Assembly: GCA_945787015.1 (NCBI GenBank)
Contig: CALZGM010000033.1
Coordinates: 1-34,129, forward strand
Reading direction: 5' to 3'
DNA: 34,129 bases
DNA from: an uncultured Roseburia sp.
GTDB lineage: Bacteria > Bacillota > Clostridia > Lachnospirales > Lachnospiraceae
Below are positions 6,281 through 34,129 of this stretch, one piece after another. Under the pieces are notes generated by a model. That model made no database searches. It saw only the letters and a program-made list of their open reading frames with translations, and was not told where the DNA came from. Position numbers and translations under genes: made by a program. Position 1 is the first letter of the stretch, and the number at the start of each line of letters is the position of its first letter.

Positions 6281-7123
6281 TTATACCTTCGGCTTATACT
6301 GAATCTCCTTTACCGTATAGATTGTCATAAAGGCATCCGGATCCGCCTCATTCATATACGCCATCAGTTTCTGGTACTCGTTCTTATCTACAATTGTAAT
6401 AATCTCATGATGCATGTCCATATTGTAAGCCCCATATGCCTCGTAAATTGTCGCACCGCTGTGCAGCGTATGCAGGATAAAATCCCGGACCTCTTCTTCT
6501 TTTTTCGTGATAATGCAGACACGTTTTTTCTCCGTCTGCCCGAAAATAAAGTAGTCTAAGATCAGACCATTTACATAAGTTCCCAGCACACTAAGCACCA
6601 CCACCTTTTTATCATAAAACAAAGCTGATGATAATGCCACACACATTCCGGCTAGCGACATCGCCTTTCCCAACTCAATATGCAAAAACTTATTCATGAT
6701 TTTTGCCACAATATCCAGTCCGCCCGAAGATGCATTACGGTTAAATAAAATACTAAGCCCCACACTCACCAGAAACACATACGCCACCACATCTAATGTC
6801 GCATCCCCGGTCATCGACTGATTATCCGGCCAGATAACCTCAAAAAGCTTCATGAATGCAGGTAGCATAATGGAGGTATATACTGTCTTTACGCCAAATT
6901 CTTTCCCACACAATAAAAAACCGATTACCAGCAATACCACATTTAAAATAAATGTAATCTCTGAGACCGTAAGCGGTATCACATTTGACAAAACAATCGC
7001 CAAACCGGAAATACTGCTTACCGCAGCATGGCTCGGTATCAAAAAGAAAAAGACTGCTGCCGCGATAATAGCTACGGCAGCGGTTAAAATGATGATTTCT
7101 TTTACTAATTCACGTTTCTTCAA
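6281..7123 (-). CDS. YitT-family membrane protein (DUF2179 C-terminal domain)
   Basis: A 280-aa integral membrane protein of the YitT/YebE type. Several hydrophobic segments span residues 8-200 (for example IIILTAAVAIIAAAVFFFLI near the N-terminus, and SEITFILNVVLLVIGFLLCG). A soluble C-terminal DUF2179 domain follows (VCIITKKEEEVRDFILHTL; DPDAFMTIYTVKEIQYKP). The molecular function of the family is unknown. The frame opens with TTG, which overlaps the stop of the upstream rpn gene by four bases (TTGA); an AAGGGA run lies about 8 bases upstream. The gene therefore probably depends on the rpn promoter. Confidence 0.82.
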   Translation of the reverse strand: MKKRELVKEIIILTAAVAIIAAAVFFFLIPSHAAVSSISGLAIVLSNVIPLTVSEITFILNVVLLVIGFLLCGKEFGVKTVYTSIMLPAFMKLFEVIWPDNQSMTGDATLDVVAYVFLVSVGLSILFNRNASSGGLDIVAKIMNKFLHIELGKAMSLAGMCVALSSALFYDKKVVVLSVLGTYVNGLILDYFIFGQTEKKRVCIITKKEEEVRDFILHTLHSGATIYEAYGAYNMDMHHEIITIVDKNEYQKLMAYMNEADPDAFMTIYTVKEIQYKPKV

Positions 7124-8037
7124 AGTTCTAGTCCCTTCCTGATAGCTTCTACATAAGTGCTGTCACACCCCAAAAGATCACAAATTTCCTCTATTGTTTT
7201 GTTTTTCCTAAGCATATTTATAACTATACCTCTAAGCAATTCTTCTCTTCCTTCTTCTCTTCCTTCTTCTTTACTATCGTCAATCAAATCCCTAAGTCCT
7301 TTGCACATATTGATTCCTCCATTCTCTCCCTTATATTTTTCCATTTCAATGACTCCTTCACCCAAATTTGCATACTTTGTAATTACATCATAGGTATCTT
7401 GGGAAATATTTTTAAAATACTCATCTTCACTTACCAGTTCCAAAAGTGCTTTTTTATCTTCTGCACATCGAATAAAATCAAACACTTGACGTAAATCTGT
7501 CTTAAATACACTCGTATCTTTAAACCTTCGAATATCAATCAGATGAATCCGATAATCTGCAACCAGATTTCTTAATTCTTCCGGAATATCAGTAAAATCA
7601 ATGATGTCATGCAGGCTTAATGGCCCATCCCATTTTTTTGCGCCTGAATACAAAGCAAATGTCACAACCGGATGTAATCTGCTGTCTTTTTTAAAGCCAT
7701 ACAAAAACTCTCCCGGATTTAACTTTTCCTTTTGTTGCTTCAGTTGATTTCGGGTCCTTGTCACCTGCTTTTTGTAACGCTTTACATCATATTCCATAAT
7801 GCGTATAGGGAACTCATAATCCATCTCATCCTGATTCTCGATTCCAACTATAGCAAAGTTCACTCCCAGCGCTGTCTTACGAACCAAATCCCGTACTTTC
7901 TTACCTGCTCGCGTATCCAGTTCCGACAAATCAGCCTCAGAAACTACCTGCTTACCAGAAAATACAATTCCATTAATTGCATCTGCATACCGGCAGTCAT
8001 CTTCAAAAAATTCTACCCATTCTACGTCTTTTCCCAT
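7120..8037 (-). CDS. Rpn-family PD-(D/E)XK nuclease, type A copy 1
   Basis: Rpn (recombination-promoting nuclease, formerly transposase-like) protein of 305 aa. The N-terminal nuclease-like part (MGKDVEW to about residue 230) has the ADLSELDTRAGKK segment and a FAIVGIENQ strand, where an E-x-Q takes the place of E-x-K as in other Rpn proteins. A charged EEGR repeat and a short helical C-terminal domain (INMLRKNKTIEEICDLLGCD) follow. I chose the ATG at 8037, which has GGAGG directly upstream; the longer frame would use a GTG close to the promoter. It is nearly identical in layout to the copy at 12221-13168. Its stop overlaps the yitT start. Rpn proteins are DNA-cleaving and some act as phage defence. 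Confidence 0.85.
   Translation of the reverse strand: MGKDVEWVEFFEDDCRYADAINGIVFSGKQVVSEADLSELDTRAGKKVRDLVRKTALGVNFAIVGIENQDEMDYEFPIRIMEYDVKRYKKQVTRTRNQLKQQKEKLNPGEFLYGFKKDSRLHPVVTFALYSGAKKWDGPLSLHDIIDFTDIPEELRNLVADYRIHLIDIRRFKDTSVFKTDLRQVFDFIRCAEDKKALLELVSEDEYFKNISQDTYDVITKYANLGEGVIEMEKYKGENGGINMCKGLRDLIDDSKEEGREEGREELLRGIVINMLRKNKTIEEICDLLGCDSTYVEAIRKGLEL
7306..7320 (-). promoter_or_regulatory. Internal ribosome-binding site and ATG inside rpn type A copy 1
   Basis: GGAGG (7320-7316) lies 7 bases before an in-frame ATG (7308-7306). This would start a separate 62-residue protein (MCKGLRDLIDD...) consisting of the EEGR repeat and the C-terminal domain only. Some Rpn genes in Enterobacteria are known to make a small C-terminal protein from an internal start that inhibits the full-length nuclease. 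This site has the form expected for such an antitoxin. Confidence 0.55.
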
Positions 8038-8078
8038 GGTCCTCCTTTTGCAACCATATAGAAAGTTCACCTACAGAA

Positions 8079-8222
8079 ATTATACAAAAAAAAAACCTAT
8101 CAGGCAATTGTTACTTCATAATATTTGTTTATTCATTGGAATTCTCTCCCGGAACCGGGCAAGATTCGCCAGACAGTCCAACACTTAAGTTTTGAACCCA
8201 TAATGTAAAAACACATCGAAAA
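8079..8222 (-). repeat. Promoter module, copy 1 (upstream of rpn type A copy 1)
   Basis: Conserved upstream segment shared with 10578-10723 and 13210-13357. Minus strand: -35 TTGCCT (8107-8102), 17-base spacer containing a run of ten T, -10 TATAAT (8084-8079). Further upstream is a conserved block including GAATTCCAA, CCCGGTTCCGGG (palindromic arms in this copy) and GGTTCAAA. The three copies are clearly related but diverged. It drives the rpn gene starting at 8037. Confidence 0.75.
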
Positions 8223-8390
8223 ATCATATAATTTATGCAGGTGCTTTCTATACCTATCACCTGATGATAAAAGGATTGTAGCACTTAAGAATAAAATAAG
8301 CAAGGAAAACATTTAAAATATAATTTATCTCCCATCCAATCTATGTTAATATTATCATGAAAACAAAAAACACCTATAAGGAGGCCTCCC

Positions 8391-9458
8391 ATGGCAACCA
8401 TAAGTCTATGCATGATTGTAAAAAATGAAGAAGCGGTTCTTGCCCGGTGCTTGGATTCTGTCGCAGATTTAATGGACGAAATTATCATCGTCGATACCGG
8501 CTCCACAGACCGCACAAAAGAAATCGCCGCAAATTATACTTCCATGGTTTATGATTTCCCGTGGCAGGACGATTTTTCCGCGGCCAGAAATTTTTCTTTT
8601 TCAAAGGCTACCATGGACTATATTTATGCTCCGGATGCAGACGAATTACTAGACGAGGAAAATCGCAAACGTTTTTCTCATTTAAAACAGACGCTCCTTC
8701 CGGAAGTCGAAATCGTTCAAATGCTCTACCATACAATATCGGAATATAATACCGTGCTAAATGCACAAAAAGAATACCGTCCAAAATTATTCAAGCGGAT
8801 GCGCACCTTTCAGTGGATGGACCCCATTCATGAAACCGTCCGCACCTCACCGGTTGTCTATGACAGTGATATTGAAATCTTACATATGCCACAGACGTTT
8901 CATCACAAACGTGATTTTTCCATTTTCCTGAAAGCCTATCAGCGCGATGGTATGCTTTCTCAAAAAATCTGGCGCATGTATGCAAAAGAATTATTAAAGC
9001 TGGGAGATAACAAAGATTTTGCAGATGCCCTTCCGCTCTTTCTTTCTGTCTACGAGACTACGGAAGATGCTGATTTTAAAAAAGAAGCTGCCTGTGTCCT
9101 TGCCCGGGCTTATCGCTTTTCCGGTAATACCGATCGTTTTTTCTCACTGGCGCTAAAGGATATGATTACCACTCCCTGCTCTGAAATCTGCTATGAACTA
9201 GGTTGTTATTATAAAGAAAAGGGAAACTACGATGAGGCTGTCATGTGGTTTTACAATGCCGCTTTTGAAACGGAAAGTATCCTTGATATTCATACAAACG
9301 GTGATTTATCGCTTACCGAATTGGCTGACTGCTATGAAGCTCTTCTTGCACGCACGAGGGAACTGGAGCCTTGGGATGGCATGAAAATAAATTATTATGA
9401 AGAACAGGCTGATGCGTACCGCATACAGGCTAAGAAATGGAAAATGCCGGAGGTTTAA
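8391..9458 (+). CDS. GT2 glycosyltransferase with C-terminal TPR region
   Basis: A 355-aa glycosyltransferase of the family that includes SunS-like enzymes. The GT-A N-terminus has SLCMIVKNEE (residues 5-14), the nucleotide-binding DTGSTDRTKEIA (35-46) and the metal motif DADE (82-85). Residues from about 190 on are helical and repeat-like (ELLKLGDNKDFADALPLF; ELGCYYKEKGNYDEAVMWF), which is TPR-type. Soluble; no membrane segment is seen. AAGGAGG is 6 bases before the ATG and lies inside the palindrome GGAGGCCTCC. It is the only plus-strand gene here apart from the transposase. Its acceptor is unknown; flagellin or another protein is possible given the flagellar sugar cluster 8 kb away. Confidence 0.85.
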   Translation: MATISLCMIVKNEEAVLARCLDSVADLMDEIIIVDTGSTDRTKEIAANYTSMVYDFPWQDDFSAARNFSFSKATMDYIYAPDADELLDEENRKRFSHLKQTLLPEVEIVQMLYHTISEYNTVLNAQKEYRPKLFKRMRTFQWMDPIHETVRTSPVVYDSDIEILHMPQTFHHKRDFSIFLKAYQRDGMLSQKIWRMYAKELLKLGDNKDFADALPLFLSVYETTEDADFKKEAACVLARAYRFSGNTDRFFSLALKDMITTPCSEICYELGCYYKEKGNYDEAVMWFYNAAFETESILDIHTNGDLSLTELADCYEALLARTRELEPWDGMKINYYEEQADAYRIQAKKWKMPEV

Positions 9459-9474
9459 CCCCCGGCTTTCTTTT
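9446..9474. terminator. Bidirectional terminator between glycosyltransferase and coiled-coil gene
   Basis: GCCGGAGG pairs with CCCCCGGC around a TTTAA loop (one mismatch), followed by TTTCTTTT on the plus strand and by ATTTT on the minus strand. It overlaps the 3' ends of both convergent genes, so each stop codon lies within or beside the stem. Confidence 0.7.
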
Positions 9475-9754
9475 AAGCTGTATGGACTGATTTATCAGCT
9501 TGATGCCGCATTAGTATGTGATGAACACGTTCCACTTCATCAAGTATCGCTCTATCCATAGATTTTAGCTCTCGGAAGTGATTGTCTACCTTTTTGTTCA
9601 GAGCAGTTACTTTGTTGTCTAGAGCATCTACTTTGTTATCTAGAGCATCTACTCTGCCTTCCAGTGTTGTCAGACGATTATCAATCGATCCCATCTGCCC
9701 ACTCATTACATCAAACTTCTCAAGCAATAAATCCAGTTTCTGATCCTGCGTCAT
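9473..9754 (-). CDS. Small coiled-coil protein with heptad repeats
   Basis: A 93-aa soluble protein that is almost entirely coiled coil. Heptads run from about residue 20 to 60 (LTTLEGRVDALDNKVDALDN, then VTALNKKVDNH), and a 21-bp DNA unit (VDALDNK) is repeated in tandem. I chose the ATG at 9754 (MTQDQKLDLLLEKFD) because GGAGG lies 7 bases upstream. A candidate promoter on the minus strand has TAGACA (9829-9824), a 17-base spacer and TAATAT (9806-9801). Similar small proteins are widespread in Lachnospiraceae accessory regions; I know no assigned function. The repeats suggest oligomerisation. Confidence 0.72.
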   Translation of the reverse strand: MTQDQKLDLLLEKFDVMSGQMGSIDNRLTTLEGRVDALDNKVDALDNKVTALNKKVDNHFRELKSMDRAILDEVERVHHILMRHQADKSVHTA

Positions 9755-9849
9755 AAGCTTGCCTCCTTTCTCATACAACCTCTCCCCGTAAAGTAAATTT
9801 ATATTAGCATGGAAATTTGGTGATGTCTATTAGGCAAAATCACGAATGC

Positions 9850-10263
9850 TCAATCCACATTTTGCTGATAGTACTCCGCTGCTTTCCTCATAAAGTCATC
9901 CATCAACTGATAATACTTTAACGTAATGTCTTGGAAATATTTGAGAGCCAGTTCTCCATCATAATCATGCGCAAGATTATTTCTGGTTCGTAGCATTTCC
10001 ATCCATGTATCATCCTCAATAAGTCCAACACTATGAGCCATACGAAGCGTCTCCCGCGGTGACCCGGTAGGATATTCCAATGCTCCATGGTATTCTGTAA
10101 TAACATCCTTCATGACTTTCCAGGATAAATCAAAAGACAAATTGAACATTTGTGCTGTACCGCTAAGAATAAATATGTCTTCCGGATCTCTTCCTTTCGC
10201 TTCTGACAAATTATTCAAACTCTTACAAAAGCTATGATAACGATTAATAGATTTTCTCTCCAT
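9850..10263 (-). CDS. HEPN-domain protein (HI0074/HepT-like), toxin half of MNT/HEPN pair
   Basis: A 137-aa all-helical protein of the nucleotidyltransferase substrate-binding (HI0074) family. Residues 94-101 (RNNLAHDY) give an exact R-X4-H-X-Y motif, the RNase motif of HepT toxins. Its tyrosine is the residue AMPylated by MntA-type partners in characterised systems. The start lies 20 bases inside the end of the MNT gene, so the two are co-translated. Toxin activity is inferred from the motif and pairing, not shown. Confidence 0.85.
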   Translation of the reverse strand: MERKSINRYHSFCKSLNNLSEAKGRDPEDIFILSGTAQMFNLSFDLSWKVMKDVITEYHGALEYPTGSPRETLRMAHSVGLIEDDTWMEMLRTRNNLAHDYDGELALKYFQDITLKYYQLMDDFMRKAAEYYQQNVD

Positions 10264-10516
10264 ATCTATCCATATCCTCCTTCAGATACTGATTCTGACA
10301 TAAATCATATTCAAACAAATCAATTTTTTTCAATGTCATGATTTCATTAATCTGCTCCTGCAACTGCGCCATGTTTACTTTGCCATATATAATAAAATCA
10401 AGGTCACTATATTTTGTTGCCGTACCTTTTGCATGCGAACCAAAAAGTGCCAAATGCTCCACATTATTATTTTTGCAAATGGCTGTAACTTGTTCAATAA
10501 TATCTTCAACTGTCAT
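10244..10516 (-). CDS. MNT-type minimal nucleotidyltransferase (MntA-like antitoxin)
   Basis: A 90-aa minimal nucleotidyltransferase. Residues 26-40 (GSHAKGTATKYSDLD) fit the GS-X10-D-X-D active site exactly, as in MntA antitoxins that AMPylate the HEPN toxin. I chose the ATG at 10516 (MTVEDIIEQ), which has GCGAGG upstream. A longer frame exists, but its upstream starts lie on or before the conserved -10 element at 10583-10578. It overlaps the HEPN gene by 20 bases. Transcription comes from copy 2 of the promoter module shared with the rpn genes. Confidence 0.85.
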   Translation of the reverse strand: MTVEDIIEQVTAICKNNNVEHLALFGSHAKGTATKYSDLDFIIYGKVNMAQLQEQINEIMTLKKIDLFEYDLCQNQYLKEDMDRYGEKIY

Positions 10517-10577
10517 ATACAAATCCTCGCTTTCTATGTCAGTTTTCACATTTCTTACCGAAAATCCACCCATAAAA

Positions 10578-10723
10578 ATTATACGAAAAAAGCACCTGCC
10601 AGGCAATCGTTACTTTAAAAATATTCTCTTCTATACTTGGAATTCTTTCCAAGAACCGGGATAAGATTCTCCGGATAGTTCATCACCAAAGCTTTGAATC
10701 AGCGATGCTAGCACGCATCGAAA
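10578..10723 (-). repeat. Promoter module, copy 2 (upstream of MNT/HEPN)
   Basis: Related to 8079-8222 and 13210-13357. Minus strand: -35 TTGCCT (10606-10601), 17-base spacer with six T, -10 TATAAT (10583-10578). The upstream block holds a 7-bp hairpin CTTGGAA/TTCCAAG, then the TTCAAAGCTTTGG block, then a 6-bp stem CGATGC/GCATCG at 10703-10720. Its far edge abuts the end of a decayed type-B rpn gene. Confidence 0.75.
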
Positions 10724-10724
10724 T

Positions 10725-11409
10725 TTACATCTCAGACAATGCTTTCTCTACAAGCGAATCACTAATCTCGGCACATTTCTGCGCTAATTCCTTTGATATA
10801 CCATTCTCTATCATATTTTTAAATACCTGAATTCCTTTATTATTGGTTCCATTATCAAATCCATTATCAAATCCATTATTAAATGCCTCATCAATCTCTG
10901 GTTTCATAATCTCTGCTAACGCTTTGCACATATTCTCATCCTCCCTTACCTTCTGAATCGTTTGCTTATTTACAGATGCTACTATTTCCCATAAAGAATC
11001 CGCATAATTTTTCTCATCTAAATTTACTAATTTCTGTGTCGTTTCTATTAATTCTGTTGCCTGTTCCACGTTTACTAATATAATAAATGCCTCGCCATTT
11101 TTCTTCAATATAAAAATTTTCTCTTTTTAACTTTTTAAATAATTTTAGGGGTTTTCTTTCTCGGATAAAGGATAATGTCATATCCTCTAACAGAATCTCA
11201 TCTACATAGGGCTCATTTGACTTGTAAAAATATGCATAGGCAATTCCTTTTAGAAACACATCATAATTTATGATAATAGAAAGTGCGCAAAGCGTACTTT
11301 CTATTATATAAAGAATCGTCCGGCGATTTATATTCTAACAAATTATGTTTACCGAATATCCGACCGATTTCGTTTTGGATTGTGCCTGGGTTTCTTTTGT
11401 CTTTTCCAT
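10725..11409 (-). pseudogene. Decayed Rpn type B gene
   Basis: Remnant of a gene homologous to the intact copy at 13519-14376. Compared with that copy, it has lost one base right after the start codon (ATGGAAAAG for ATGGGAAAAG). It lacks about 45 codons covering the residues between GKDKRN and IQNEIGRIFGKHN. It also has a 40-bp palindromic insertion at 11266-11312 and an 89-bp deletion near 11070. The C-terminal part (VNVEQATELIETTQKLVNLD to VEKALSEM) is still open. It carries two NGFD units where the intact copy has fewer. The internal ribosome-binding site and ATG (GGGAGG...ATGTGCAAAGCG) are preserved, so the short C-terminal protein could still be made. Confidence 0.82.
11266..11312. repeat. 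Palindromic insert splitting the decayed rpn type B gene
   Basis: About 40 net extra bases relative to the intact gene at the same point. The core is ATAATAGAAAGT (11273-11284) and its perfect reverse complement (11296-11307); the inner GCGC/GCGT also nearly pair. The same 12-bp arms form the hairpin at 14496-14530 upstream of the intact type-B gene. This looks like a very small mobile palindrome. Confidence 0.65.
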
Positions 11410-11640
11410 AGGCAGTTTTTCCTTTCAGTATAAAATTCTTGATTACTTGGAGTTTTGGACGAAATGTCAGAATTGCCAAGTAGATGTCGCAAAAAGCGGC
11501 AATTGGCTGTCTATAGATAACAGCCGAATGATAGAAAATGTGCTCTGTAAACTTTCTATTATCATGAAATCAAAAAGAGTGAATGCTTTCTGAATGGTAA
11601 CAGTATAGCACTCACTCTTTGTTTTTACAATAATTATTTA
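11410..11640. repeat. Hairpin-rich upstream region of decayed type B gene
   Basis: Homologous to the region from about 14380 to 14620. It contains, in order, a GTCGC/GCGGC stem, the GGCTGT/ACAGCC stem near 11508-11525, a diverged ATAGAAA/TTTCTAT hairpin (11531-11560), and an imperfect 11-bp terminator-like stem (GAGTGAATGCT with AGCACTCACTC) around 11578-11622. No coding capacity is seen. Confidence 0.6.
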
Positions 11641-11747
11641 AGGCATATCTTTTTGTTTTCTCCGGACTCTCTGTCCGACATCGAAACAAAAGAGCCGTTC
11701 CTAATAATACTTACTACCTTTAATAATATTATAGTAAAAATCACTAT

Positions 11748-12216
11748 CTACATTAACTGCGATTTTACTATCTGTTGGTGCTGTCGCAACGCATCCTCTT
11801 CGTATTCCTTCAGCATCTCCTTAATATCAAATACGAAAAAACTCATATCAATATTAAATGCCACCGCAATATTCCATGGACTATTGTACTAATGCTCATC
11901 CTCCGAACGAACCCACAATTTCAGGTTTTTAATATCATGCACTCCCGTAAGAATAACCGAGCGAAAAGTAGGTCTCTCCTCACGCCTTAAATTCTTGTCA
12001 TGCAGCATCCCCAGAAATTTTAAAAATATATCAAAACCGCTTACCCGATCTACCTCATCAATCATCAGCACAGCAGACTTATCCATCGAACTGCACAGGG
12101 CAGAAATAAAAATACCCAAGCTCTGGAAATCCTTCTTTCCTTATGTTTTCGCACTCCTTAATTTTAATTCCTCTTCTATCTTCTGTGGTACTCCCTGCAC
12201 TTTTCTATAAAAGCTT
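11748..12216 (-). pseudogene. Remnant of AAA-ATPase-like protein (PD-(D/E)XK-associated)
   Basis: One continuous minus-strand frame, interrupted by stops at 12143-12141 and 11891-11889, reads as the middle of an AAA-ATPase_like (DUF1703-associated) protein. It contains SFYRKVQGVPQKIEEELK, then the Walker B region VLMIDEVDRVSGFDIF, the ILTGVHDIKNLKLWVRS sensor strand, and after the second stop YNSPWNIAVAFNIDMSFFV. The N-terminal Walker A and the C-terminal nuclease domain are missing. Full-length relatives in this family carry both. It lies between two rpn loci and is non-functional as written. Confidence 0.72.
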
Positions 12217-12220
12217 TCTT

Positions 12221-13168
12221 TCACAGTTCACTCTTAATGCGCTCCACATACTCCCTGTCGCAGCCAATTATATCACATATATCCTCTAGCGTTTTGTTTT
12301 TCTTTAACATGTTTATTATAATGGTTCTGCGTTCCGACTCTGCGCCGATGCTTACCCCTTCTTCTCTTCCTTCTTCTCTTCCTTCTTCTCTTCCTTCTTC
12401 TCTGCTATCAGCTATTAAATCCCTAATTCCTTTACACACGTCAATTCCACCATCCTCTCCCTTATATTTTTCCAAATCAATGACTCCTTTTTTTATATTT
12501 GCATACTTTGTAATCACTTCATAGGTATCTTTCGGTATATTTTTAAAATAATGATCGCCAGTGACCAAATCTAACAACGCCTTTTTATCTTCAGCACACC
12601 GAATAAACTCAAATGCCTGACGCACATCTGTATGAAACACACTTGTGTCACTTAGCCTTCGAATATCAATTAATTGTATTCGATAATTCTCAACCATTCT
12701 TTGCAATTCCTCAGGAATGTCCGTAAAATCAATGATATCATGAAGGCACACCGGTCCATCCCATTTTTCTACACCTGAATACAGCGCAAATGTCACCACC
12801 GGATACAACCTGCTGCTCTGCCTAAATCCATACAAAAATTCTCCTGGCTTTTGCTTTTCCCCTCGCCTTTTCATGCGTCTTCGAATCGCAGCTACCTGTT
12901 TTTTGTACTGTTTCAAATCATACTCCATGATACGCACTGGAAATTCATAATCCACTTCATCCTGATTCTCAATTCCAACAATCGCAAAATTCATTCCTAG
13001 CGCTGTCTTCCGAATCAAATCCCTTGCTTTCTTTCCTGCTCGCGTATCCAGTTCCGACAAATCGGCCTCAGTAATTACCTGCCTGCCTTCAAACACAAGT
13101 CCATTAATTACATCCGCATACCGACAGTCATCCTCAAAAAACTCTACCCACACTTCGTCTTTTCCCAT
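12221..13168 (-). CDS. Rpn-family PD-(D/E)XK nuclease, type A copy 2
   Basis: A 315-aa paralogue of the gene at 7120-8037, with the same MGKD start, ADLSELDTRAGKK segment and FAIVGIENQ (E-x-Q) strand. The linker carries four EEG-type units (EEGREEGREEGREEGVS) plus extra residues, longer than in copy 1. The C-terminal domain (IINMLKKNKTLEDICDIIGCD) is conserved. GGAGG lies just before the ATG. It is expressed from promoter module copy 3. The repeat-length difference between copies comes from a 12-bp unit. Confidence 0.85.
   Translation of the reverse strand: MGKDEVWVEFFEDDCRYADVINGLVFEGRQVITEADLSELDTRAGKKARDLIRKTALGMNFAIVGIENQDEVDYEFPVRIMEYDLKQYKKQVAAIRRRMKRRGEKQKPGEFLYGFRQSSRLYPVVTFALYSGVEKWDGPVCLHDIIDFTDIPEELQRMVENYRIQLIDIRRLSDTSVFHTDVRQAFEFIRCAEDKKALLDLVTGDHYFKNIPKDTYEVITKYANIKKGVIDLEKYKGEDGGIDVCKGIRDLIADSREEGREEGREEGREEGVSIGAESERRTIIINMLKKNKTLEDICDIIGCDREYVERIKSEL
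12357..12404 (-). repeat. 12-bp tandem repeat inside rpn type A copy 2
   Basis: About four units of a 12-bp CT-rich sequence (plus strand CCTTCTTCTCTT) code for EEGR repeats. Copy 1 has about two to three units at the matching place (7245-7270). Being a multiple of three, gain or loss changes linker length without breaking the frame. Confidence 0.85.
12437..12451 (-). promoter_or_regulatory. Internal ribosome-binding site and GTG inside rpn type A copy 2
   Basis: GGTGG (12451-12447) precedes an in-frame GTG (12439-12437) at exactly the position of the internal ATG in copy 1. It would start a 72-residue C-terminal protein (VCKGIRDLIADS...). It is weaker than copy 1 but conserved in place. Confidence 0.45.
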
Positions 13169-13209
13169 GGTCCTCCTTCTGTAACCATATAGAAAATCCG
13201 CCTATAAAA

Positions 13210-13357
13210 ATTATACAAAAAAAACAACTATCAGACAATCATTACTTTCAATTATATCATTTATACTACTTGGAATTCTTTCCCGGAATCGGGTAAGATT
13301 ATCCTGACAGTCCATAGCCAAAGCTTTGAACCAAAGATGCTAGCACGCATCGAAAAA
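13210..13357 (-). repeat. Promoter module, copy 3 (upstream of rpn type A copy 2)
   Basis: Minus strand: -35 TTGTCT (13238-13233), 17-base spacer with eight T, -10 TATAAT (13215-13210). The upstream block matches copies 1 and 2 (GAATTCCAAG, CCGATTCCGGG, TTCAAAGCTTTGG, and the GATGC/GCATC stem around 13337-13353). Confidence 0.75.
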
Positions 13358-13429
13358 TCTTTTTTACAGGCATTTTCTATATTCCTCGCCTAATAGTAAG
13401 GAAATTCTATCACTCGTATAGGAAATTTG

Positions 13430-13451
13430 CAAGGGGATTTTATTCCCCTTG
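13430..13451. terminator. Hairpin downstream of rpn type B
   Basis: An 8-bp perfect stem CAAGGGGA/TCCCCTTG with a 6-base loop lies 68 bases after the type-B stop codon. No clean T-run follows, so it may be a weak terminator or simply a stable 3' hairpin. Confidence 0.45.
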
Positions 13452-13518
13452 TACAATGATTGCTTTTCTAGGTACTGATAACACTCTCTAGATACTCCAG
13501 TAACCTTTTCTAATCCTG

Positions 13519-14376
13519 TTACATCTCAGACAGTGCCTTCTCCACAAGCGAATCGCTTATCTCGGCATATTTCTGTGCTAATTCCTTTGATATACCATTC
13601 GTTATCATATTTTTAAATACCTGAATTCCTTTGTTATTGGTTCCATCATCAAAACCATTATTAAATGCCTCATCAATCTCTGGTTTCATAATTTCTGCTA
13701 ACGCTTTACACATCTTCTCATCCTCCCTTACCTTCTGAATGGTTTGCTTATTTACTGATGCTACTATTTCCCATAAAGAATCCGCATAATTTTTCTCATC
13801 TAAATTCACTAATTTCTGTGTCGTTTCTATTAATTCTGTTGCCTGCTCTACGTTCACTTTAGCAGACAGAGAATTTAGCCAGATATGATTTTCTGTGCTT
13901 AGTTCTCCTGATACAATGATTTGAATTTTTATGTATCCTTCCTTACTAATATAATAAATGCCGGGCCATTTTTCTTCAATATGAAATTTTTCTTTTTGTA
14001 ACTTTTTTAGTAATTTTATGGGTTTTCTTTCTCGGATAAAGGATAAGGTCATATCCTCTAATAGAATCTCATCTACATGAGGCTCATTTGACTTATACAG
14101 ATAGGCGTATGCAATTCCTTTTAGAAATACATCATAGTTAAGAGAATCGTCCGGCGACTTATACTCTAGCAAATTATGTTTACCGAATATCCGACCGATT
14201 TCGTTTTGGATTATACATGACTTTCGCTTCTTAATGATTAACAAATCCGACCGAAGCGGCAACGTATTCAAAATCTTCTCCTCAGTAAACTCCAAATCTT
14301 CCTTGTTATCCTTTAGTTCTAAGTGCATTGCACCATAGAATGCAGGATGCCACTGATTTCTTTTGTCTTTTCCCAT
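13519..14376 (-). CDS. Rpn-family PD-(D/E)XK nuclease, type B
   Basis: A 285-aa Rpn-like protein, a different lineage from type A. A candidate nuclease core includes RSDLLIIKKRKSCIIQNEIG and the E-x-K motif in HNLLEYKSPDD near residue 77. A linker with an NGFDDGTNNKG repeat precedes a C-terminal helical domain (IQVFKNMITNGISKELAQKY). I chose the ATG at 14376 (MGKDKRNQW), preceded by AAGGGA. A longer frame to 14460 lacks a ribosome-binding site. The MGKD start is shared with type A. A decayed relative lies at 10725-11409. Confidence 0.8.
   Translation of the reverse strand: MGKDKRNQWHPAFYGAMHLELKDNKEDLEFTEEKILNTLPLRSDLLIIKKRKSCIIQNEIGRIFGKHNLLEYKSPDDSLNYDVFLKGIAYAYLYKSNEPHVDEILLEDMTLSFIRERKPIKLLKKLQKEKFHIEEKWPGIYYISKEGYIKIQIIVSGELSTENHIWLNSLSAKVNVEQATELIETTQKLVNLDEKNYADSLWEIVASVNKQTIQKVREDEKMCKALAEIMKPEIDEAFNNGFDDGTNNKGIQVFKNMITNGISKELAQKYAEISDSLVEKALSEM
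13711..13727 (-). promoter_or_regulatory. Internal ribosome-binding site and ATG inside rpn type B
   Basis: GGGAGG (13727-13722), then 8 bases, then an in-frame ATG (13713-13711). It would give a 64-residue protein (MCKALAEIMKPEI...) holding the NGFD linker and the C-terminal domain. The same site is retained in the decayed copy. The small protein begins MCK in both type A copy 1 and type B. Confidence 0.55.
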
Positions 14377-14647: not shown

Positions 14648-14791
14648 GGGTCTTTGACACTTGCATTTTTAAAATATTATAGAGAATCCTTTAATTAAGC
14701 CATTCACGGCTTATTTTTTTGTCAAATTTTACATTTTCTTATGTACTTGTTTGTACTAGTGTGTTATAATAGAACTAGGAGGGATGTTTTT

Positions 14792-16546
14792 ATGTATGTA
14801 AATATCACTGGTAGTTCAAACAACAAAGATGTATATATTTATCAATCTTACAGAAAAGAGAATGGGAAGTCTTCTTCTCGCATTTACAAAAAACTCGGGA
14901 AATATAATGAACTCCTAAAACAGTTCTCTGGCGACGAAGAAAAAATGATGGCTTGGGCCAAAGCAGAAGCTGATAAAGAAACCGCTCTTTATAATCAACA
15001 AAGAGAGCAAGTTTCTGTCACTTTCTCTCAAACAGCTCGCATTCCATTGGAAGAAGAACGTTTTTTCAATGTAGGCTATCTTTTTTTACAGCAATTATGT
15101 TCTGAATTAAGATTGGATAACATTTGCAGGAACATTCGTAACCGTCACAAATTCACTTATGACTTTCACGCGATTCTCACAGATTTAATCTATGCAAGAA
15201 TCCTATCACCTTCCAGCAAGATGAGCAGCTATTCGTTCTGTCATTCTCTTTTGGAACCACCTAAATATTCTTTGCAGAATGTTTATCGTGCTCTTTCGGT
15301 TATGGCGGAGGAATCGGATTACATCCAAGAAGAACTTTATCGTAATTCTAACTTTGTACATCATCGCAACTCAAGAATCCTGTATTACGATTGCACGAAT
15401 TACTATTTCGAAATCGAAGAAGAAAGTGGTGATAAAAAATACGGCAAAAACAAAGAACATAGACCAAATCCGATTGTTACCATGGGACTTTTTATGGATG
15501 CTGATGGTATTCCTCTGGCTTTTGATATTTTCCCCGGAAACCAAAACGAGCAGCTTACCTTAAAACCTTTGGAAACCAAGGTTATCAAAGATTTTGATTG
15601 CAGCGAATTCATCTTCTGTTCGGACGCTGGTTTAGGAAGCATAAAAAACCGCTTTCTAAACAGTTTTGGTAATCGTTCTTATGTGATTACTTACTCATTG
15701 AAAAAAATGAAACAGGAAGATCGTGAAATAGCCTTGAATCCATCTCAATTTAAGATTCCCGGTTCCAATAAGATGATTGATTTAAGAACGCTTGACGAAA
15801 CAGACCCTGAAATATTTAATACGGTTTACTACAAGGAAGTACCTCTTGTAACCGGAGATATGGATGAAACGATTATTGTAACGTACTCACCTAAATATAA
15901 AGCTTACCAGCAAAAAATTCGCGGCCGTCAGATTGAACGTGCACTGAAAATGATACAGGCTCCAGGAAAATGCAGACGAGGAAAGAACCAAAACGATCCT
16001 GCGCGATTCATTCAAAAAACCACCCTTACATCAGATGGTGAAATCGCAGACAAGTCTGTTTATGAATTGGATGTGGAACGCATTAATGAAGAAGCCATGT
16101 ATGATGGTTTCTATGCTGTCATAACAAACCTTGAGGATAATCCCTCGGAAATCATTAAGATTAACAAACAACGTTGGGAAATCGAAGAAAACTTTCGAAT
16201 CATGAAATCTGATTTTGAAGCCAGACCAGTTTATGTGCAGAGAGATGACCGTATCAAGGCACATTTTCTAACATGCTATATCAGTCTATTAGTATATAGA
16301 TTACTAGAAAAGAAACTTGGGGAAGAATTCACATGCAGTCAGATTTTAGAAACGTTGCGAGGTATGAATGTAACACTGTTAAGCAAGGACAGCGGTTATA
16401 TACCATCTTACAAACGCACAAAACTGACCGATGCGCTTCACCGCACATTTAAATTTAGAACAGACTTTGAATTTATAACCAAAAGTTCTATGCGAAGTAT
16501 CATCTCAAATACGAAAAAGGCGAATAGCACAAAAACAAAAATATAG
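14792..16546 (+). CDS. IS1634-family (IS4-type DDE) transposase
   Basis: A 584-aa DDE transposase, uninterrupted. Likely catalytic residues are the aspartate in YYDCTNYYFEIEE (about residue 210), the aspartate in FCSDAGLGS (about 280), and the glutamate in WEIEENFRIMKSDF (about 465) with the Y/R-x-K/R signature of IS4-like enzymes. I chose the ATG at 14792 (MYVNITGSS), with AGGAGGG 8 bases upstream. A TATAAT with an upstream TG lies at about 14764. It appears intact and potentially active. Confidence 0.9.
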   Translation: MYVNITGSSNNKDVYIYQSYRKENGKSSSRIYKKLGKYNELLKQFSGDEEKMMAWAKAEADKETALYNQQREQVSVTFSQTARIPLEEERFFNVGYLFLQQLCSELRLDNICRNIRNRHKFTYDFHAILTDLIYARILSPSSKMSSYSFCHSLLEPPKYSLQNVYRALSVMAEESDYIQEELYRNSNFVHHRNSRILYYDCTNYYFEIEEESGDKKYGKNKEHRPNPIVTMGLFMDADGIPLAFDIFPGNQNEQLTLKPLETKVIKDFDCSEFIFCSDAGLGSIKNRFLNSFGNRSYVITYSLKKMKQEDREIALNPSQFKIPGSNKMIDLRTLDETDPEIFNTVYYKEVPLVTGDMDETIIVTYSPKYKAYQQKIRGRQIERALKMIQAPGKCRRGKNQNDPARFIQKTTLTSDGEIADKSVYELDVERINEEAMYDGFYAVITNLEDNPSEIIKINKQRWEIEENFRIMKSDFEARPVYVQRDDRIKAHFLTCYISLLVYRLLEKKLGEEFTCSQILETLRGMNVTLLSKDSGYIPSYKRTKLTDALHRTFKFRTDFEFITKSSMRSIISNTKKANSTKTKI

Positions 16547-32555: not shown

Positions 32556-33497
32556 TTATTTGTTACCATTCATCTGCTCGCGCACCTGTGCTACAAACTT
32601 TTCGTCACATCCTGCAATGGCACAGATTTCCACTAATGGCATCTTACGTTTTAACATCCTTAATACAGCATCCTTTTTTTCTTGATTGATTCCTTGATGG
32701 ATTCCTTTGTCGTATCCAAGCTTCTCACCGGCTTTTCTTTCTTCTCTCAACTTATCTGACGGTAGTGGTAATACTTTTCCTCCCATAACATCTTCCATCC
32801 TTTCCCTTAGTTTTTTCTCTTTTCTAAGTAAATGTTGCATAATGCGCTGCATCATTCTTAATAAATCATGGAAAAGTCCTGTCTCATCCTCTTTTGTAAT
32901 CTTTTCCAGATGTTCAATTATTTTTCTGTATTCTGCCAACAGCTGATTGGTTTTTTCACTATTACTTGCTATTTTTGAAAGGTCCTTCTCATAATTCATG
33001 ATATAATACGGCAGTAAAATCAGCAAGTTCTTTTGAAAAATTTCCTCGATTTTGTAATCTTTTAGTTTCAAAACCGGAACCCGGTATGTAACACACTGTC
33101 CATCAGAAAAGATAACTTCCATGGATTCTTCTGATAACGTATTCTTTGTAGTACGAAGATAAATGATACTCGAACGTGGAAAATATATTTTTTCCTTATT
33201 TCCTGTTCTTATGCTTTCCGATAAGGCAATCATGAAATCATACTCTATCATTCTAATTACCATATTTCCATCCCTGGTGCTTTGGCACTCAAAATGATAC
33301 GTTTTCCCATCTACTTCATTGCAGCTGTCTGCGATTACTTTTGCAAGCAGCTTTTGATGCTCCTCAGGCAAGCGGTTCACTCTTGTTTCCAATGGATAAG
33401 AAGTCTGAAACACTTCATTGATAAGTGGAATCAAAAGTTCCGGACGCCGCTCCTGGATTGTCCTTAGAACATCGTCAAAAATCGTTGTGTTTCCCAT
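32556..33497 (-). CDS. Rpn-family PD-(D/E)XK nuclease, type C copy 1
   Basis: A 313-aa Rpn protein of a third lineage. The N-terminal nuclease domain (MGNTTIFDDVLRTIQERRPE) has the aspartate region NEVDGKTYHFECQSTRDGN, where E-x-Q forms the active site, followed by VIRMIEYDFMIALSE. A long helical linker with GYDKGIHQGINQEKKD repeats leads to a C-terminal domain (LRMLKRKMPLVEICAIAGCD). AGGAGG is 6 bases before the ATG. It lies divergently in function but on the same strand as the flagellar genes, separated by a terminator. Confidence 0.86.
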   Translation of the reverse strand: MGNTTIFDDVLRTIQERRPELLIPLINEVFQTSYPLETRVNRLPEEHQKLLAKVIADSCNEVDGKTYHFECQSTRDGNMVIRMIEYDFMIALSESIRTGNKEKIYFPRSSIIYLRTTKNTLSEESMEVIFSDGQCVTYRVPVLKLKDYKIEEIFQKNLLILLPYYIMNYEKDLSKIASNSEKTNQLLAEYRKIIEHLEKITKEDETGLFHDLLRMMQRIMQHLLRKEKKLRERMEDVMGGKVLPLPSDKLREERKAGEKLGYDKGIHQGINQEKKDAVLRMLKRKMPLVEICAIAGCDEKFVAQVREQMNGNK

Positions 33498-33852: not shown

Positions 33853-34129
33853 CTATTTATTGCCATTCATCTGCTCGCGTACCTGTGCTACAAAAGTCTC
33901 GTCGCACCTTGCTATGGTACAGATTTCATCTAGCGGCTTCTTAAGTTTTAACATACTTAAAACAGTATCCTTTTTTTCTTGATTGATTCCTTGATTAATT
34001 CCCTGATGGATCCCTTGATTGATTCCTTTATCGTACCCGATTTTTTCTCCGGCTTTTCTTTCTTCTCTTAACTGATCTGACGGTAGTGGTAATACTTTTC
34101 CTCCCATAACATCTTCCATCCTTTCCCTT
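33853..34129 (-). CDS. Rpn-family nuclease, type C copy 2 (partial, cut by window edge)
   Basis: The C-terminal 88 or more residues of a second type-C Rpn, in tandem with 32556-33497 and continuing past the end of the window. It shares MEDVMGGKVLPLPSD, then the repeat GYDKGINQGIHQGINQGINQ (two more four-residue units than copy 1), and the C-terminal domain (LSMLKLKKPLDEICTIARCD). It appears intact within the visible part. The nuclease domain is not in view. Confidence 0.8.
   Translation of the reverse strand, partial: RERMEDVMGGKVLPLPSDQLREERKAGEKIGYDKGINQGIHQGINQGINQEKKDTVLSMLKLKKPLDEICTIARCDETFVAQVREQMNGNK

Follow-up and report, generated by a model that had tools for sequence, protein, structure and literature searches.

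In Escherichia coli, the recombination-promoting nuclease (Rpn) genes of the RpnL/RpnS kind (RpnA-E, RpnP2) are genes within genes, in which internally started RpnS antitoxins have been demonstrated; an RpnS has also been expressed in E. coli from a Clostridioides difficile gene, and rpn genes have been found in 34 bacterial phyla (PMC10327210). Cas10d/Cas11d offers a parallel: an internal start within a defence gene yields a small C-terminal product (cited in PMC10327210). Here we analyse candidate genes of this kind in contig CALZGM010000033.1 of an uncultured Roseburia sp. (Lachnospiraceae; assembly GCA_945787015.1). The window is the whole contig (34129 bases), and three lineages of rpn or rpn-like genes, designated types A, B and C, lie on its reverse strand.

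These genes resemble RpnL/RpnS of E. coli and C. difficile in having an internal Shine-Dalgarno sequence and start ahead of a repeat linker, a small, apparently helical C-terminal domain, four-residue repeat variation and solo downstream small genes. They differ in that three nuclease lineages occur on one contig, with tails common across lineages, and in that no internal promoter signal was found within 120 nt (PMC10327210). Our basic claim belongs to the known RpnL/RpnS gene-within-gene kind. The first-pass annotation of this DNA had presented it as an extension from Enterobacteria to Lachnospiraceae; that interpretation gains support from many genes at the sequence level, but the step outside Enterobacteria was not new, C. 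difficile RpnS having been reported, and with rpn genes in 34 phyla an extension to Lachnospiraceae was to be expected (PMC10327210). In the open-licence PMC literature, we found no paper naming both recombination-promoting nuclease and Lachnospiraceae. A rule so far documented in E. coli and for a single cloned C. difficile gene now reaches many Lachnospiraceae genes through a sequence test, which also supplies concrete start codons for ribosome profiling.

We propose, with a probability of roughly 0.86, that each gene is an RpnL/RpnS-type gene within a gene, whose small tail protein would be made and would hold the long nuclease inactive. The first start would yield a long PD-(D/E)XK nuclease with a variable C-terminal tail, and the internal Shine-Dalgarno sequence and start would yield the tail alone, a protein of 62-76 amino acids (aa) comprising a short head helix, the repeat linker and a small helical domain. 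By pairing with the tail of its long partner, this small protein would keep the nuclease inactive until it is freed by phage infection or some other stress. We infer synthesis of the small protein, its neutralising effect on the long one and the restriction of phage by the pair from the published E. coli work and from C. difficile RpnS expression; by this analogy, the small products are likely RpnS-like antitoxins. The sequences show a conserved internal initiation signal in three lineages, accompanied by solo copies, four-residue variation and tails common to the lineages.

Internal start signals in three nuclease lineages

The first type A gene, encoding a predicted RpnL-like nuclease (7120..8037, 305 aa), carries an internal GGAGG (7316..7320) 7 nt ahead of an ATG at 7308, which opens a predicted RpnS-like cistron, A1, of 62 aa (7120..7308). 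The second type A gene (12221..13168, 315 aa) has GGTGG (12447..12451) 7 nt ahead of a GTG at 12439, giving predicted RpnS-like cistron A2 (12221..12439, 72 aa). The type B putative nuclease gene (13519..14376, 285 aa) has GGGAGG (13722..13727) 8 nt ahead of an ATG at 13713, giving predicted RpnS-like cistron B (13519..13713, 64 aa). These are the ribosome-binding sites and starts that the first-pass annotation had described, and their sequence, spacing and coordinates are all confirmed, as are the predicted N-termini MCKGL (A1), VCKGI (A2) and MCKAL (B). The retention of the type B site in a decayed second copy also holds, with GGGAGG-N8-ATG and the ATG at 10931. Beyond types A and B, a third lineage, type C, is represented by an rpn-like gene (32556..33497, 313 aa) with the Shine-Dalgarno-like AAAGGATGG (32795..32803) ahead of an ATG at 32786, which would start a 76-aa product (predicted cistron C, 32556..32786). 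Near the type C gene, positions 33853-34129 hold an apparent tandem copy, of which the C-terminal end alone is present, cut by the contig end.

Duplex energies of these sites with the 16S-tail sequence were -12.6 (A1), -17.0 (A2), -13.8 (B), -13.8 (decayed B) and -12.6 (C) kcal/mol. Other in-frame Met codons in relatives averaged -5.1 in type A (n=966) and -4.3 in type B (n=341); the internal sites lie far beyond these values, indicating more than chance. Full-length starts scored -8.1 to -10.3, which allows no valid comparison with the internal starts because the measure ignores the four bases immediately preceding the start and thereby truncates the closer sites of full-length starts.

Conservation of the internal start among relatives

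For each type, a single search supplied the relatives; it covered 299 genomes for A and for B and 150 for C, almost every one from a different genus, with matches in 115/299 genomes for type A, 49/299 for type B and 27/150 for type C. The A and B sets are part of the listed matches and consist of search-recovered loci plus 80 A and 40 B regions; the C set, likewise part of the listed matches, comprises 37 rows, one of them gapped, and was not thinned for redundancy.

The type A start column holds 86 ATG and 13 GTG and no other codon (99 non-redundant of 116 rows). Val at this column is GTG in 13/13 cases, against 31% GTG elsewhere in these genes (p 2.6e-7). The type B column holds 45 ATG, 2 GTG and 2 TTG (49 non-redundant; 70 ungapped of 75 rows), one of the two TTG rows (L061) being doubtful because it ends right after the start column. 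The five gapped type B rows, which were not counted, comprise L184 and L188 (ATG with a Shine-Dalgarno sequence beside the column), two second open reading frames or fragments and one broken decayed-copy frame. A second type B set, the best 80 of 329 named loci, at least 8 of which are genes of the first set, gave 75 ATG and 5 GTG, with the start column ranking second of 287 for upstream site strength, next to the first. Most named records that carry a similar type B gene belong to Lachnospiraceae.

Shine-Dalgarno strength exceeds what the encoded peptides demand. Against synonymous recoding of the same peptides, mean energies were -13.6 versus -10.0 in type A (z -13.0) and -12.8 versus -8.0 in type B (z -11.4), and the start column ranked top of 305 columns (A) and joint top of 277 (B) for upstream site strength. 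The Shine-Dalgarno core falls in codon frames 0/1/2 in 46/44/6 type A and 32/10/5 type B genes, with a spacing of 7-8 nt in 56/96 (A) and 33/47 (B). For type C, a column scan without a preset position selected this same ATG as the best column (33 ATG and 1 TTG among 36 ungapped rows; energy -14.3).

A homologue alignment had been suggested beforehand as the check on conservation beyond codon constraint, and such conservation was found in both types A and B, and once more in the second, partly overlapping type B set. The suggestion that the shared internal start reflects selection is borne out accordingly in start codon and Shine-Dalgarno strength for A and B, with the same column recovered in C. 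On these alignments, the internal starts are very likely real.

Solo small cistrons and four-residue length variation

Among genes with at least 350 nt of downstream sequence, a second, downstream copy of the gene's own tail was present in 6 of 138 non-redundant type A and B genes. In five of these six solo small cistrons, the ATG, the Shine-Dalgarno sequence and an uninterrupted frame (64-85 aa) are retained, and a stop codon lies in frame 22-35 codons upstream. Solo small cistrons downstream of the cognate gene show the same arrangement as E. coli rpnE-ypaA (ypaA/rpnES) (PMC10327210). Tandem duplications could have left them as remnants.

The decayed type B copy in the window (about 10725..11398, reverse strand) resembles this solo case: its nuclease part is broken across three frames, and its small cistron (10725..10931, 68 aa) is open and keeps its ATG and Shine-Dalgarno sequence. 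Its tail is longer than that of intact B by one NGFD unit. The decayed copy is possibly a solo antitoxin with a repeat number unlike that of the intact copy.

Tail length varies widely between close relatives. After exclusion of 53/145 close pairs whose tails differ, 74/92 close pairs (heads at least 75% identical, alike tails) had tails of unequal length, and in 51 of these 74 the difference was a multiple of four residues, the pairs not being independent of one another. Four-residue length variation is a published hallmark of RpnS (PMC10327210).

Tails common to nuclease heads that do not align

The first-pass annotation had called types A and B otherwise dissimilar. This stands for the nuclease heads, which do not align; downstream of the internal start, however, the two types are related. 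Between the nuclease parts of A, B and C, no cross-type BLAST pair was found at E<=1e-3, and profile comparison (hhalign) gave 0.1% (AB), 4.1% (AC) and 0.2% (BC). Tails gave 250 (AB), 113 (AC) and 37 (BC) cross-type BLAST pairs, against none with shuffled sequences, and hhalign values of 97.9%, 94.4% and 95.0%; when the 60 residues before the start were included, these were 97.3%, 83.0% and 91.9%. Clustering of 179 tails produced 11 clusters of four or more, all 11 mixing nuclease types and five holding all three; window tails A2 and C fall in one cluster.

To what extent heads and tails are associated was assessed from best-matching tails, excluding partners with heads over 45% identical (12/179 tails were left without a partner). 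Heads of types B and C had best-matching tails of the types expected under random pairing (chi-square p 0.94 and 0.39), whereas those of type A did not, 78/96 best partners being type A (p 2e-7). Genome G031 has a type A gene, L020, whose tail matches that of a type B gene, L067, over 161 nt (79.5%), and L020 differs from its type A relative L075 (75% identical head) in having a different tail from about +60 nt. Two type B genes of one assembly, L295 and L303 (84% identical heads), have tails that diverge from about +50 nt. Tail replacement was considered for 16 inspected close pairs and rejected for most, these being alike tails out of register; L295/L303 and L020/L075 alone were accepted.

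Of the cross-type DNA matches, 73 in all, none is confined to sequence upstream of the internal start, and 69/73 begin 23 nt or more after it, some of them being repeats. The exchange point therefore probably falls within the repeat linker, downstream of the internal start. A junction exactly at the start codon was rejected, as the A-B profile match runs about 20 columns before it and 69/73 DNA matches begin after it.

These patterns raise the prospect, on which we are evenly balanced, that tails are exchangeable cassettes, families of which move between lineages A, B and C of independent or very ancient origin, also within one genome. Because the tail would belong both to the long toxin and to the internally started antitoxin, one recombination in the linker would supply a new tail and its matching antidote at once, so that a new insulated toxin-antitoxin pair could be created in one step. 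This suggests a reason for nesting an antitoxin within its toxin: a swapped or lengthened common tail would re-specify both partners simultaneously. In a limited search of open-licence PMC literature, no listed title or abstract dealt with the exchange of tails between lineages of Rpn nucleases, and the apparent reassortment of heads and tails is part of what is new here.

Family membership of the nuclease heads

Both type A copies pass the PF04754 cut-off of 21 bits (29.7 for copy 1, 24.8 for copy 2), placing them in the YhgA-like family of E. coli Rpn proteins; against TIGR01784 they score 16.5 and 19.4 bits, below its cut-off of 52.1. Type C matches TIGR01784 at E 6.1e-6 with 26.3 bits, also below the cut-off, and gave no PF04754 match. 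Set beside the YhgA-like Transposase_31 (PF04754)/TIGR01784 proteins (PMC5350276), type A agrees in passing the PF04754 cut-off, while type C differs in falling below that of TIGR01784 and the type B window protein in matching neither.

Types A and C both conserve an E-x-Q pair, likened by eye rather than by alignment to E82 and Q84 of RpnA, and type A has a conserved R-D pair upstream as well (D 110/116); no catalytic Asp was located in type C. Type B differs from RpnA in having E-x-K in place of E-x-Q, and its residues E33, D44, E71 and K73 are invariant in a 29-member alignment. No Pfam model is common to two of these 29 members; TIGR01784 matches 8/29 somewhere along the protein at E<=0.01. 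A Foldseek search of the type B model against the PDB returned nothing at E<=1e-3, its first rows being adenosylhomocysteinases and others, and a PDB sequence search with the type B alignment, like one with the type A1 protein, was uninformative. PADLOC left types A and C unmatched and gave weak matches alone for type B. The type B head, a putative nuclease lineage matched by no Pfam nuclease model, is also part of what is new.

Counter-evidence and alternative explanations

Several observations weigh against the proposal that these are RpnL/RpnS-type genes within genes. For the type B protein of the window, neither Pfam nor TIGR01784 gave a nuclease family match. Two of the 36 type C rows have no start codon at the site (ATA, GCG). 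A profile of 34 tails matches the RpnA-S structure 7th0 only at E 0.017, amid other proteins, and 7th0 is not among the matches listed for the A2 tail alone. Taken singly, 30/99 type A and 18/49 type B genes reach p<=0.05 against recoding, so that the excess sits in the mean.

Promoter signals are a further such point. E. coli rpn genes carry an internal promoter (PMC10327210). From -120 to -20 before the internal start, there was no promoter-like excess over synonymous recoding (z -1.2 in A, 0.6 in B). Promoter-like sites from -220 to -120 gave z 3.4 (A) and 0.9 (B), and 25/98 type A genes scored 9 or more in this interval, 13 of them in the -170 bin. This weak excess about 170 nt before the type A internal start could represent an internal promoter like that of the E. 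coli rpn genes. The window itself contains one 9-of-12 promoter-like site some 80 nt ahead of the A1 start, and the surrounding region has 6 promoter-like sites versus 2.9 (standard deviation 1.8) in shuffles.

Wider checks in Rpn genes were mixed. In a TIGR01784 set from a 299-genome phylum search, to which the genome of the window contributed seven genes, an open reading frame of 200 aa was present at 46 of 50 loci and absent from the other four. The best Shine-Dalgarno-preceded start lay 40-130 codons from the end in 98% of the 46, versus 51% after recoding (at most 70% in 20 rounds). No single start column stands out in the mixed TIGR01784 alignment, where the best column (-8.9) consists of Ala codons. 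In E. coli rpnA, M244, the proven internal start (PMC10327210), is the best ATG of the gene at -8.5; a TTG at codon 121 nevertheless outscores it at -10.4, indicating that energy alone does not always pick the true start. The claim is consequently carried by the family-wide alignment and not by single-gene energy.

The alternative that fares best, although we consider it unlikely, accepts that the small protein is made and takes it either for a positive subunit, in the manner of Cas11d with Cas10d, or for a DNA-binding regulator. Weak helix-turn-helix matches below the cut-off occur in the A1 tail and in the tail profile, and Cas11d exemplifies a complementary product that completes its complex (cited in PMC10327210), whereas the small protein here is expected, by analogy, to inhibit. 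The RpnS proteins of E. coli block their long partners (PMC10327210), and solo extra copies suit an inhibitor better than a subunit or regulator.

Another possibility is that a conserved peptide, in which a Gly/Glu-rich hinge precedes a Met-Cys that heads a helix, gives rise incidentally to the start-like codon and the purine-rich stretch. The Gly and Glu codons of the hinge give a fairly strong site even when recoded (the means of -10.0 and -8.0 given above), and most single genes (69/99 A, 31/49 B) do not beat recoding at p<=0.05. However, the observed means beat synonymous recoding (z -13.0 and -11.4), every Val at the type A site is encoded by GTG (13/13) and the core occupies different codon frames, all of which makes this explanation very improbable.

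Shine-Dalgarno-like stretches within genes have been proposed to slow ribosomes, but a translational pause or coupling element in place of a start is scarcely credible here, given that a start codon, GTG and TTG included, occupies the site in 99/99 A, 49/49 B and 34/36 C rows and that five solo copies start at the same place.

Neighbouring features

A similar stretch of about 70-90 bases (ggaattct... onward), identified by eye, occurs upstream of both type A genes (8139-8210 and 13272-13350) and again at 10643-10710; it may be a shared leader or a duplicated segment. Between the rpn genes, at 9850-10606, two adjacent open reading frames may encode a HEPN and nucleotidyltransferase (MNT) toxin-antitoxin pair, which they resemble by motifs. 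Adjoining the type B gene, at 14741-16546, lies a 601-aa open reading frame that resembles an insertion sequence (IS) transposase.

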